From: Falsirhodobacter halotolerans
GTDB taxonomy: Bacteria; Pseudomonadota; Alphaproteobacteria; Rhodobacterales; Rhodobacteraceae
DNA length: 64,000 nt
NCBI RefSeq assembly: GCF_022899245.1
Contig: NZ_JALJAZ010000001.1
Coordinates: 2,019,001 to 2,083,000, forward strand
Direction of reading: 5' to 3'
Shown here: positions 1,871 through 57,059 of the stretch, piece after piece
Layout of the letters: each line of letters opens with the position of its first letter
Position numbering within the stretch: the first letter of the stretch is position 1
The notes under the pieces: generated by a model
Seen by the model: the letters and a program-made list of their open reading frames with translations, nothing else
What the model was told of the DNA's origin: nothing
Databases searched by the model: none
Program-made: the position numbers and the translations under genes

Positions 1871-3081
1871 GCATCGTTTCCGCCCGGATGCGGCAGGTCA
1901 AATTGTCGCCCAGCGTCGCCGCGCGCATCATTCTGAACCAGTTGAGGGAGGAAGGTCGCCGCATCATCGACCTGACGATCGGCGAGCCGGACTTTACTAC
2001 CCCGGCTCACATCTGCGACGCCGCCCACGCGGCGATGCAGCGGGGGGAGACCAAATATCCCTTGTCGCAAGGCACGATGGCCCTGCGCAAGGCCGCGGCC
2101 GAGCGCATCCGCCTCGATACCGGGATCGAATACCCACTTGATCAGATCATTGTCAGCACCGGCGCCAAACAGGTGCTCTACAACGCGCTGACGGCCACGC
2201 TTGAGGTGGGTGACGAGGTCATCATCCCGGCCCCGTTCTGGGTATCCTATCCCGACATGGTGGAATTGGGGGGCGGCGTGCCGGTCACGCTCGAGACCCA
2301 TTCGGCTGCGAACTACAAAATCACGCCCGATGCGCTTCGGTCCGCGATCACGCCGCGCACGAAGTGGCTGATGCTGAATGCCCCGAGCAATCCGTCCGGG
2401 GCTATTTATGACCGCGAAGAGTTGCTGGCCCTCGCCGGAGTGCTGCGAGAGCAGTCCCACGTTTGGCTGATGACGGACGACATCTATGCCAGGCTGACAT
2501 TCGATGGGGGCCCGGCAACGCACATACTTCAGGTCGCGCCGGATCTGGCCGATCGCACGCTGGCGGTCAACGGGGTGTCGAAATGCTATGCCATGACCGG
2601 TTGGCGCATCGGCTACGGCTCGGGTCCGAAGGACCTGATCAAGGCCATGGCGGTGGTGCAATCGCAAAGCACCTCCGGGGCTTGTTCCATCAGCCAAGCG
2701 GCGGCAACCGCCGCCCTCACGGGGCCGCAGGACTGCGTCGAGGCATTCACACGCTCGTTCAAGGAGCGTCGTGACCTCGCAATGTCAATCCTTACGCAGG
2801 CGCCGGGGTTGACGGCCGTGGCGCCGGGCGGCGCCTTTTATATCTTCCCCGACTGCTCGGCCCTTCTGTGCCGCACGGCGCCGGACGGGACGAAGATCGT
2901 GACCGATGCCGATCTGGTGCAGTATATTCTGCAAACCACCGGAGTGGCATTGCTTGACGGGGGATCTTACGGGGTTCCCGGCACCTTCCGCATGTCCTTC
3001 GCTTCAGCCCCCGAAGAGGTGCGCGCGGGATGTGAGGCCATCAAATCCGTCTGCGAAGAACTGACGGCTGTTCCGGCCTGA
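1867..3081 (+). CDS. PLP-dependent aminotransferase, class I/II (AspC-like)
   Basis: 404 residues with fold-type I aminotransferase features: NAPSNPSGA (about 171-179), the TDDIYARL segment, and the PLP lysine in SKCYAMTGWRIGYG (K239). It should move an amino group between an amino acid and a 2-oxo acid in the cytoplasm. The ATG at 1867 overlaps the upstream stop and gives the usual family N-terminus; in-frame starts further up lie inside the aldolase gene. The pairing with an HMG-type aldolase suggests it makes the oxo acid that the aldolase cleaves. Substrate specificity cannot be read from sequence. Confidence 0.88.
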   Translation: MSIVSARMRQVKLSPSVAARIILNQLREEGRRIIDLTIGEPDFTTPAHICDAAHAAMQRGETKYPLSQGTMALRKAAAERIRLDTGIEYPLDQIIVSTGAKQVLYNALTATLEVGDEVIIPAPFWVSYPDMVELGGGVPVTLETHSAANYKITPDALRSAITPRTKWLMLNAPSNPSGAIYDREELLALAGVLREQSHVWLMTDDIYARLTFDGGPATHILQVAPDLADRTLAVNGVSKCYAMTGWRIGYGSGPKDLIKAMAVVQSQSTSGACSISQAAATAALTGPQDCVEAFTRSFKERRDLAMSILTQAPGLTAVAPGGAFYIFPDCSALLCRTAPDGTKIVTDADLVQYILQTTGVALLDGGSYGVPGTFRMSFASAPEEVRAGCEAIKSVCEELTAVPA

Positions 3082-3109
3082 ACAGGGCCATACCAACAGG
3101 AGAAAACAT

Positions 3110-3928
3110 ATGAACTTGCGACATCTGATCTGGGCAGCGCTGCTGGCACTTCCCGCTATGGGGGGAATGGCACAGGCCGATGCCCTTGCCGACATCAAGG
3201 CGCGTGGCGTGCTTGTATGCGGCACACTAGGAACGTCCGAACCGTTCAGTTTTCAGGACGCGGCGACGCGCAGCCTCGTCGGCTATGATGTCGACATCTG
3301 CAAGCTGGTGGCCGATCACCTTGGCGTTGGTATCGAATACAAGCTTCTTGCCGTCGCGGCCCGTATTCCCGAACTGGACAGCGGGCGGGTGGACGTGCTG
3401 GCCGCGAACCTTGGCTGGACCGCCGAACGCGCGGACCAGATCGAGTTCAGCCACCGCTACTACGTGACGCCGCAGAAGCTGCTGGTGCGCGCCGACAGCG
3501 ACATCCAGACAATCGACGACCTGCAGGGCAAACGCATCGGCGCGACGAAGGGATCGTCGTCGGAGCGGGTGATCGCCGAACGCCTGCCGGAATCGCGCGT
3601 GATCGGCTATGCCGACAGCCCGGCCACGTTCCTGTCGCTGCAGCAGCGCAAGGTCGATGCGCAATTCGCGTCCGAGCTGGTGCTGGTGCGTCTTGTCAAC
3701 CAAAGCCCCGACAGCTCCCCGACCCGCATTCTGGAACAGTCGGTCGTGGACGAACCCTGGGGCCTTGGCATCCGCAAGGGCGAGGACGCGCTTTTGGCCG
3801 AGGTGAACGCCGCGCTGGACGAAGCGGAAACTTCCGGCGAGGCGCAGGCCCTGTTCGACAAGTGGTTCGGTGCGGACACGCCCTATGATCTGACCCGTTC
3901 GTTCCAGATCGGTCCCATCACCAACTGA
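3110..3928 (+). CDS. Periplasmic amino-acid-binding protein of ABC importer
   Basis: 272 residues, SBP_bac_3 family. The first about 24 residues are a typical signal peptide ending MAQA, then the mature protein starts DALADIKARGVLVCGT, the standard opening of polar amino-acid binding proteins. It should capture a polar amino acid or analogue in the periplasm and deliver it to the two permeases that follow. AGGAG lies upstream of the ATG. Middle gene of the 1190-7057 operon; a hairpin after the stop (3946-3972) may raise its yield relative to the membrane subunits. Confidence 0.9.
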   Translation: MNLRHLIWAALLALPAMGGMAQADALADIKARGVLVCGTLGTSEPFSFQDAATRSLVGYDVDICKLVADHLGVGIEYKLLAVAARIPELDSGRVDVLAANLGWTAERADQIEFSHRYYVTPQKLLVRADSDIQTIDDLQGKRIGATKGSSSERVIAERLPESRVIGYADSPATFLSLQQRKVDAQFASELVLVRLVNQSPDSSPTRILEQSVVDEPWGLGIRKGEDALLAEVNAALDEAETSGEAQALFDKWFGADTPYDLTRSFQIGPITN

Positions 3929-53095: not shown

Positions 53096-53361
53096 GACAG
53101 CCTCCTTGCTTGCCCCACAGGTCGGGCAGATCGCCGCAAAGCACAAGTGCCCACCCCGGATCGTTCGCACGCCGCCCTGAAATCGGGCAAGTCGCCCCGG
53201 AATAGGCATGCAGTCCTGACCTAGCCATGCGGCAAGCGCATGGCGGTATTGCCAAGAACCCGGATTGTGCCGGACGGCGGTTCGCACCAAATTGTCCTCA
53301 ACAGCGCGAACCAAGGAATGGGCCAAGGCCAGCGCGGTTGATAACATGATGTGAGGTCGAG

Positions 53362-53571
53362 ATGGCACAAGCAGTTTATGGCGTTGAAAATGCTGGCGTT
53401 CGCGTTGAAGGCGGGTTCCTGTCCATGATCAAGACCGCGCTGCACCGTCGCGCCGTCTATCGTCAGACGGTGGCCGAGCTGAACGCCCTCTCCACGCGCG
53501 ATCTTGCCGATCTGGGAATGTCCCGGTCGAGCATCCGTGAAGTGGCATTTCAGGCCGCTTATAGTAAGTAA
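53362..53571 (+). CDS. DUF1127 RNA-binding protein (CcaF1-like)
   Basis: 69 residues. The C-terminal DUF1127 domain (YRQTVAELNALSTRDLADLG, then MSRSSIREVAFQAA) is an arginine-rich pair of helices. In R. sphaeroides the DUF1127 protein CcaF1 lies upstream of, and is co-transcribed with, the CcsR sRNAs, binds RNA and influences their maturation; expression there is under stress sigma factors RpoHI/RpoHII. Here the same order is seen: the stop at 53571 is 60 bases before the first CCTCCTCCC hairpin. GAGGTCGAG precedes the ATG. The gene symbol is withheld because orthology was not tested. Confidence 0.85.
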   Translation: MAQAVYGVENAGVRVEGGFLSMIKTALHRRAVYRQTVAELNALSTRDLADLGMSRSSIREVAFQAAYSK

Positions 53572-53630
53572 GGTCTGACGCCGGACATACCGGCACAGGT
53601 TTCGGGGCCACGGCCCCAACGATGTACGGA

Positions 53631-53697
53631 CGGCCCCTCCTCCTCCCTGGGCCGATCGGACCCGCGGCGACCCTCTCCTCCTCCCTGGGGTCGCCGC
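53631..53697 (+). ncRNA. CcsR-like unit 1 (hairpins 1 and 2)
   Basis: Hairpin 1: CGGCCC (53631-53636) with GGGCCG (53649-53654), 12-base loop. Hairpin 2: GCGGCGACCC (53664-53673) with GGGTCGCCGC (53688-53697), a perfect 10-base-pair stem and 14-base loop. The pairing of hairpins into units is inferred from the two-hairpin CcsR architecture. Confidence 0.65.
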
Positions 53698-53708
53698 ACC
53701 AGTTTCGT

Positions 53709-53779
53709 CCCGGCGGCCCCTCCTCCCTGGCCGCTGCGGGCAAAAGGCGATGTCTCTCCCTCCTCCCTGGGGCATCGTC
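53709..53779 (+). ncRNA. CcsR-like unit 2 (hairpins 3 and 4)
   Basis: Hairpin 3: GCGGCC (53713-53718) with GGCCGC (53729-53734), extended by CCCG/CGGG after a bulge. Hairpin 4: GGCGATG (53746-53752) with CATCGTC (53773-53779), including one G-U pair. Both loops show CCTCCTCCC. Confidence 0.65.
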
Positions 53780-53788
53780 ACCCTCTTC

Positions 53789-53860
53789 GGTCACCCCTCC
53801 TCCTCCCTGGGTGGCCGCAAGACTGGAACGTTGCCGCTCCTCCTCCCAAGGCGGCGTTCC
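53789..53860 (+). ncRNA. CcsR-like unit 3 (hairpins 5 and 6)
   Basis: Hairpin 5: GGTCACCC (53789-53796) with GGGTGGCC (53809-53816), one G-U pair. Hairpin 6: GGAACGTTGCC (53825-53835) with GGCGGCGTTCC (53850-53860), where two TT/GG positions pair as G-U, showing that pairing is kept despite sequence change. Confidence 0.65.
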
Positions 53861-53868
53861 ACAGGCTC

Positions 53869-53953
53869 CGCGGCTCCCCCTCCTCCCTTGGGGTCGCGTG
53901 ACGCGAAAAAGACGGCGACGCCCCTCCTCCTCCCTGGGCGTCGCCGTTTTTTT
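53869..53953 (+). ncRNA. CcsR-like unit 4 (hairpins 7 and 8)
   Basis: Hairpin 7: CGCGGCTCC (53869-53877) with GGGGTCGCG (53890-53898), two G-U pairs. Hairpin 8: ACGGCGACGCCC (53912-53923) with GGGCGTCGCCGT (53936-53947), 12 perfect pairs, then a run of seven T. Hairpin 8 thus doubles as the terminator of the locus. Confidence 0.65.
53912..53953 (+). terminator. Rho-independent terminator of the DUF1127-sRNA locus
   Basis: Twelve-base-pair stem (53912-53923 with 53936-53947) and T7 tract (53947-53953). It stands 46 bases before the 3' end of convergent uvrD. Confidence 0.9.
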
Positions 53954-53998
53954 ATGTCCGAATGTCAGGTTTTCGAGCGGCCGAAGGCGCAGCCCGGA

Positions 53999-56893: not shown

Positions 56894-56968
56894 GCGGGCG
56901 TAGCTCAGGGGTAGAGCATAACCTTGCCAAGGTTAGGGTCGGGCGTTCGAATCGCCTCGCCCGCTCCA
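56894..56968 (+). tRNA. tRNA-Gly (anticodon GCC), copy 1
   Basis: 75-nt cloverleaf with acceptor GCGGGCG/CGCCCGC, D-arm TAGCTCAGGGGTAGAGCA, anticodon loop TTGCCAA (GCC), T-arm GGGCGTTCGAATCGCCT, encoded CCA. Sixteen bases separate it from an identical second copy. Confidence 0.97.
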
Positions 56969-56984
56969 ACTGGATAAATGGAGT

Positions 56985-57059
56985 GCGGGCGTAGCTCAGG
57001 GGTAGAGCATAACCTTGCCAAGGTTAGGGTCGGGCGTTCGAATCGCCTCGCCCGCTCCA
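56985..57059 (+). tRNA. tRNA-Gly (anticodon GCC), copy 2
   Basis: Identical in all 75 positions to copy 1, offset by 91 bases. It ends 66 bases before hisB, so hisB may be read from the tRNA promoter after tRNA processing. Confidence 0.97.

Follow-up and report, generated by a model that had tools for sequence, protein, structure and literature searches.

The 64,000-nucleotide stretch of Falsirhodobacter halotolerans DNA that was analysed here (the window) carries a gene for a small DUF1127 protein, followed on the same strand by eight hairpins that all display the same nonamer in the loop. The explanation that we favour, with a probability of about 0.78, is that this is a one-unit ccaF1–CcsR locus which was ancestrally repressed by PhaR, a repressor that senses stored PHB, and which has lost this input in the window's species. 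A single transcript would encode CcaF1, the DUF1127 protein, and carry in its 3'-UTR four two-hairpin CcsR sRNAs, which may be freed by RNase E together with CcaF1, after the example of Rhodobacter sphaeroides.

The DUF1127 gene and the hairpin array

The DUF1127 gene that had been predicted at 53362–53571 (plus strand) encodes 69 amino acids and matches Pfam PF06568 (E 6.8e-12), and it is regarded as the orthologue of ccaF1 because of this match and because its orthologues are accompanied by arrays as well. The gene order mrp / DUF1127 / array / uvrD is common to many Rhodobacterales, and all six other genomes of the window's genus have a DUF1127 gene and an array at the same place; one of these six has a CcaF1 protein with the same sequence as the one from Falsirhodobacter deserti (L013). 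The CcaF1 protein of R. sphaeroides complements a DUF1127 mutant of Agrobacterium, and DUF1127 proteins of other bacteria act via protein partners, which calls for caution with respect to the CcaF1 protein (PMC12501420). Two more DUF1127 genes are present in the window's own genome at C1:386463 and C1:1160194 (L010 and L012), away from the array, and two adjacent tRNA genes with equal Rfam scores are located at 56894–56965 and 56985–57056.

Downstream of the gene, CCTCCTCCC occurs in eight exact copies, starting at 53639, 53677, 53719, 53759, 53799, 53839, 53879 and 53926, with steps of 38, 42, 40, 40, 40, 40 and 47 nt. The window as a whole has ten copies, compared to 1.0 expected from shuffled sequences, and ten copies were reached in 0 of 100 shuffles. 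When the 389-nt RNA from 53572 to 53960 is folded (−193.6 kcal/mol, z −7.4, 0/100 shuffles), both the minimum free energy and the centroid structure place all eight nonamers in hairpin loops, one in each hairpin, and if the hairpins are folded singly the mean unpaired probability of the nonamer is 0.97–1.00. The copy positions and folds agree exactly with the coordinates of the original prediction, and its converse, a motif buried in stems, was checked and is not what the folds give.

On the plus strand, the folds delimit hairpin 1, with loop CCUCCUCCC, at 53627–53658 and hairpin 2 at 53664–53697 (pair A), hairpins 3 and 4 at 53707–53740 and 53746–53779 (pair B), hairpins 5 and 6 at 53784–53822 and 53824–53861 (pair C), and hairpins 7 and 8 at 53865–53904 and 53906–53953 (pair D), with covariation as additional evidence for hairpins 2, 4, 5, 6 and 8. 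By inspection, hairpin 8 is an intrinsic terminator that itself carries the motif and is followed by a U-run at 53947–53953, in keeping with the final terminator that had been proposed; a simple terminator scan of the locus gave no match, the loop of this terminator exceeding the length that the scan allows.

The stems had been described as diverged but self-complementary, and comparison with species of the same genus bears this out. For hairpins 2, 6 and 8 in five species (the window and four of its genus), 95.6% of the cells are paired, and ten stem pairs are changed on both sides, versus 3.3 in shuffles (0 of 500 as high) and 0–3 in a control in which the partner was slid along the same three helices. 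In another count, which took in six hairpins, compensatory changes were seen in 13 out of 55 pairs; hairpin 8 was out of register there, for which reason the three-helix count is the sounder one. The loops are near-invariant across species while the stems vary, as would be expected if selection acts on the loop and the presence of a hairpin rather than on the sequence of the stem.

Hairpin pairs and relationship to known cuckoo RNAs

In a set of 69 arrays the spacing alternates between short and long by index (medians 39, 66, 42, 56, 41.5, 50, 40, 46 and 40), which implies that the hairpins come in pairs, as CcsR1–4 do; judging from this spacing, the hairpin pair is the evolutionary unit of the array. 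Ten hairpins are present in each of the sister genomes G122, G124 and G125, where the gaps are, for example, 37, 66, 37, 42, 37, 37, 39, 40 and 42, and the gaps of the window fit this series from the third gap onward. On this comparison, the window's array is equivalent to pairs 2–5 of the sisters, pair 1 being missing, and the small hairpin that lies between pairs 1 and 2 of the sisters persists in the window as GGGGCC-AC-GGCCCC at 53604–53617 (plus strand; compared with G120, G122, G124 and G125). The match to pairs 2–5 makes four two-hairpin RNAs likelier than eight RNAs or one, even though the even spacing in the window (38–47 nt) masks the pair pattern. Four two-hairpin sRNAs are accordingly our best guess from the comparison of arrays, and of the numbers that had been considered originally this is the one favoured by the pair architecture. 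The number of hairpins per array ranges widely among species, from 2 to 16; the longest array among the named loci (L028, a Tabrizicola sp. MAG, 2668–3412) has sixteen copies of CCTCCTCCC with paired spacing.

Identification as a ccaF1–CcsR locus (CIN1, "cuckoo RNA") is supported by synteny and by Rfam matches within the genus. In the window, the CcsR1 model (RF02791, gathering threshold 65.3) scores 51.2 bits over 53622–53702 and 39 bits over 53864–53952, and the ar14 model (RF02344, threshold 58.8) scores at best 51.6 bits, over 53740–53863. Two loci of the same genus do exceed the thresholds (G120 with CcsR1, 66.4 bits; G125 with ar14, 69.2 bits), as do three R. sphaeroides-like genomes with CcsR1 (G051, 106; G091, 94; G021, 87). 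The covariance search that had been suggested thus gave a divided answer, with the window below both thresholds and some of its relatives above. Strict Rfam membership fails for the window alone, and its CIN1 identity is assigned via synteny: the DUF1127 gene upstream, CCUCCUCCC-loop hairpins with diverged stems and an orthologous position are all found. With the papers discussed below, synteny and the models that pass in the sisters uphold the earlier identification as DUF1127/CcaF1 with CcsR, and the array itself is a further member of the already known cuckoo/CcsR family. Tandem nonamer pairs with such spacing were present, at least one each, in 83 of 120 sampled genera, a count in which, owing to the near-symmetry of the motif, the reversed-pattern control also picks up part of these arrays. 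A search of the window's genome for additional cuckoo arrays yielded none, the other CcsR1 matches being weak and chance-like, since control genomes match too.

Among the closest known systems is ccaF1–CcsR1-4 of R. sphaeroides (RSP_6037; CIN1; RF02791), which shares the DUF1127 gene, the array of CCUCCUCCC-loop hairpins in the 3'-UTR and the 3' terminator; the CcsR1-positive genomes G051 and G091 also have the array directly 3' of ccaF1. According to papers on this system, ccaF1 is cotranscribed with CcsR1–4 from an RpoHI/RpoHII promoter, the transcript is processed by RNase E and CcaF1, and the CcsR RNAs affect FlhR and pyruvate dehydrogenase (PMC10253847, PMC8625941, PMC8307010). The window differs by its eight evenly spaced hairpins, by units whose scores, 51 and 39 bits, stay below the threshold of 65, and by eroded PhaR boxes where R. 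sphaeroides-like genomes keep them. The Rhizobiales cuckoo RNAs of the ar14 family (SmelA075 and SmelA099) likewise consist of consecutive hairpins with an identical loop motif and variable stems, but each RNA comprises three or four hairpins, and the paper that describes them gives no link to a DUF1127 gene (PMC3927594); against their model the window scores 51.6 bits where 58.8 is needed.

Putative PhaR boxes and their loss together with PhaR

Alignment of promoters points to a putative promoter at 53265–53293 (plus strand), with TTGTGC as the −35 element, which is conserved in relatives, a spacing of 17 nt and CAAATT as the −10 element. It has the TTG at −35, while the consensus −12 TAT of RpoHI/RpoHII promoters is not evident in CAAATT. 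Control by RpoH in the window cannot be confirmed from the promoter sequence alone, RpoHI/RpoHII control being known only for R. sphaeroides, and a sigma-70 scan of the locus gave no match.

The original prediction held that only this locus is new, and thereby missed the promoter, where relatives have a putative PhaR operator pair that is eroded here. Two putative PhaR boxes (CTGCN3-4GCAG, at least 7 of 8 positions) precede 63 of the 68 array loci in PhaR-encoding genomes; they take the form of CTGCATRGCRG and GTGCANNYGCAG, and in 58 of these 63 they are 30–31 nt apart. Such pairs occur in 0.2% of shuffled upstream regions and in none of the 68 reversed sequences. The pair lies around TTGTGC, with box 2 of the relatives overlapping the conserved −35 ATTGTGC. 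In the window the comparison with relatives locates the eroded positions at 53236–53246 (box 1, here GCGCATGGCGG) and 53267–53278 (box 2, here GTGCCGGACGGC), both on the plus strand, and the promoter has no CTGCN3-4GCAG match of 7/8 or better.

The boxes of the relatives match the published PhaR consensus of R. sphaeroides, CTGCNNNGCAG, and box 2 is very close to the Sinorhizobium meliloti sites that were tested by EMSA, in mmgR (ATTGTGCACCGCAGCA / CAATTGTGCACCGCAGCATTA) and SMa1961 (ATATTGTGCAGTGCAGCAACA) (PMC12542648). In S. meliloti phasin promoters two PhaR sites also flank the −35, and PhaR is sequestered by PHB (PMC12542648). CTGCN3GCAG-type doublets are also found upstream of phaP in the genomes of the same relatives. 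The mmgR case is a precedent for PhaR control of an sRNA, since the MmgR promoter has a PhaR box, ATTGTGCA..GCAGCA, of the kind found in the relatives but not in the window; MmgR is an unrelated RNA and no homologue. In the literature searched, in a search that was not exhaustive, a link of PhaR to CcsR, CcaF1 or DUF1127 is not stated. The upstream sequence TGCATRGCRGCATTG was rejected as a genome-wide regulon motif, being present in one copy per genome in 7 of 21 genomes, with the G003 copy outside the locus, in apparent coding sequence; because the exact pattern misses the phaP-type boxes, such single copies are no argument against PhaR.

PhaR itself (PF07879) was found in 115 of 120 genera, and within the window's genus its presence goes together with that of the boxes. 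Both are present in G120, G123, G124 and G125, and both are absent from the window's genome (G000), G121 and G122, which retain ATTGTGC, the −10 region and TCAACAGCGC. In a second genus boxes are missing from the PhaR-less genomes G003, G138, G139 and G135, the last of these being less complete, and of the PhaR-encoding members G140 has one perfect box and G134 none. This brings the near-complete PhaR-less genomes without a box to six (G000, G121, G122, G003, G138 and G139); G098, an assembly that is 84% complete, has boxes and no PhaR match. In the first sample the boxes occurred in 63 of 68 PhaR-encoding and 0 of 4 PhaR-less cases (Fisher p 1e-4, in a test that ignores shared ancestry), and since a single loss of PhaR within the window's genus is compatible with the tree (support 53%), no more than about two independent events can be taken as secure. 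PhaC was not found in G000, G121, G122 and G124, and since G124 keeps PhaR and boxes without PhaC, the boxes follow PhaR and not PhaC. The retention of PhaR in G124, where PhaC_N was not detected, suggests either that PhaR has functions other than that at PHB granules or that PhaC was lost recently.

It could be argued that a different factor binds the box pair, or that the pair belongs to the promoter itself, and that its loss in PhaR-less genomes reflects shared ancestry. There are probably just two independent losses, the PhaR-encoding G134 lacks a box, and a second conserved palindrome adjoins the pair: CATGC-N7-GCATG, an inverted repeat between mrp and ccaF1 at 53225–53241, which is conserved in relatives including PhaR-less genomes. 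Its general form, YATGC-N7-GCATR, was found in 65 of 73 array loci versus 8 of 7300 shuffles, at 38–39 nt upstream of TTGTGC, and survives the loss of PhaR. We nevertheless consider this explanation unlikely, although it carries some weight, in view of the agreement with the consensus and the EMSA-tested sites, the same doublet at phaP, the persistence of PhaR and boxes in G124, and the finding that the −35 and TSS motifs are kept while only the GCAG halves erode. PhaR control, as deduced from sequence and co-loss, is therefore preferred: it is fairly probable that the CcaF1–CcsR operon belonged to the PhaR regulon ancestrally, that PHB would release the array and so curb pyruvate dehydrogenase and C1 flux, and that lineages without PhaR lost this input but kept the array.

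Mode of action and implications for carbon metabolism

The CcsR-type loops are described as anti-Shine–Dalgarno sequences in papers on both groups of bacteria (PMC10253847, PMC8625941, PMC8307010, PMC3927594). By analogy with the R. sphaeroides homologue, each CCUCCUCCC loop would pair with GGAGG-type ribosome binding sites of selected mRNAs and lower their translation or stability. The suggestion that the hairpins bind the ribosome sites of many mRNAs does not show as a broad perfect-match signature, which was rejected: GGGAGGAGG, the perfect complement of the loop, is not enriched genome-wide (63 sites versus 72 for a reversed control), and plausible start codons were found at about 3 of 30 inspected sites, the candidates being a Na/sulfate-type symporter, an FAA-hydrolase-like protein and a 70-aa open reading frame. 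Pairing of the CCUCC core to selected ribosome binding sites is the most likely mode on this analysis.

That perfect complements are not enriched at start sites genome-wide would also be expected if the array mainly is a sponge for CcaF1 or Hfq, with CCUCCUCCC as a protein recognition motif and repeats that autoregulate CcaF1 without pairing to mRNA. CcaF1 is reported, in the R. sphaeroides work, to bind RNA and to affect CcsR maturation, and CcsR to interact with Hfq too. The same work has CcsR1–4 acting on FlhR mRNA, however, and for the cuckoo-type RNAs of Rhizobiales an anti-SD role is proposed in a paper in which DUF1127 is unmentioned (PMC3927594), which makes a sponge unlikely. Even less probable is a global action, in which the hairpins mimic the anti-SD of 16S rRNA, occupy strong SDs of any mRNA in competition with the ribosome and dampen translation under stress. 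Every loop does contain CCUCC, the core anti-SD, near-invariant across species while stems vary; but the R. sphaeroides work reports changes in selected transcripts, the wide range in hairpin number is hard to reconcile with it, and a search for the 16S 3' tail pattern in the organism's own assembly gave no match.

With selective pairing as the preferred mode, the physiological role can be envisaged as follows. In most Rhodobacteraceae, PhaR bound to the two boxes around the −35 would additionally repress the unit, in parallel with the stress input through RpoH. Under carbon excess PHB would accumulate, PhaR would be taken up by the granules and ccaF1–CcsR would be derepressed, after which CcsR may lower pyruvate dehydrogenase and C1 functions and thereby the inflow of acetyl-CoA. 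In the window's species, which has lost both PhaR and PhaC and in which the boxes have eroded, control would be left to the other inputs, from stress and housekeeping. An increase of pyruvate dehydrogenase through PhaR has been reported for S. meliloti (PMC12542648); speculatively, one possible indirect route for this effect would be an sRNA that PhaR represses and that itself lowers the enzyme.

For the cuckoo/CcsR family, the array adds a well-resolved member that points to the hairpin pair as the unit of evolution. The PhaR wiring is the part that a specialist would not expect. Through the box pair, a stress-sRNA locus that is widespread would become connected to carbon storage and, if the wiring is true, stored carbon would feed back on the supply of acetyl-CoA, a link that may account for the effects of CcsR on pyruvate dehydrogenase and C1 metabolism.
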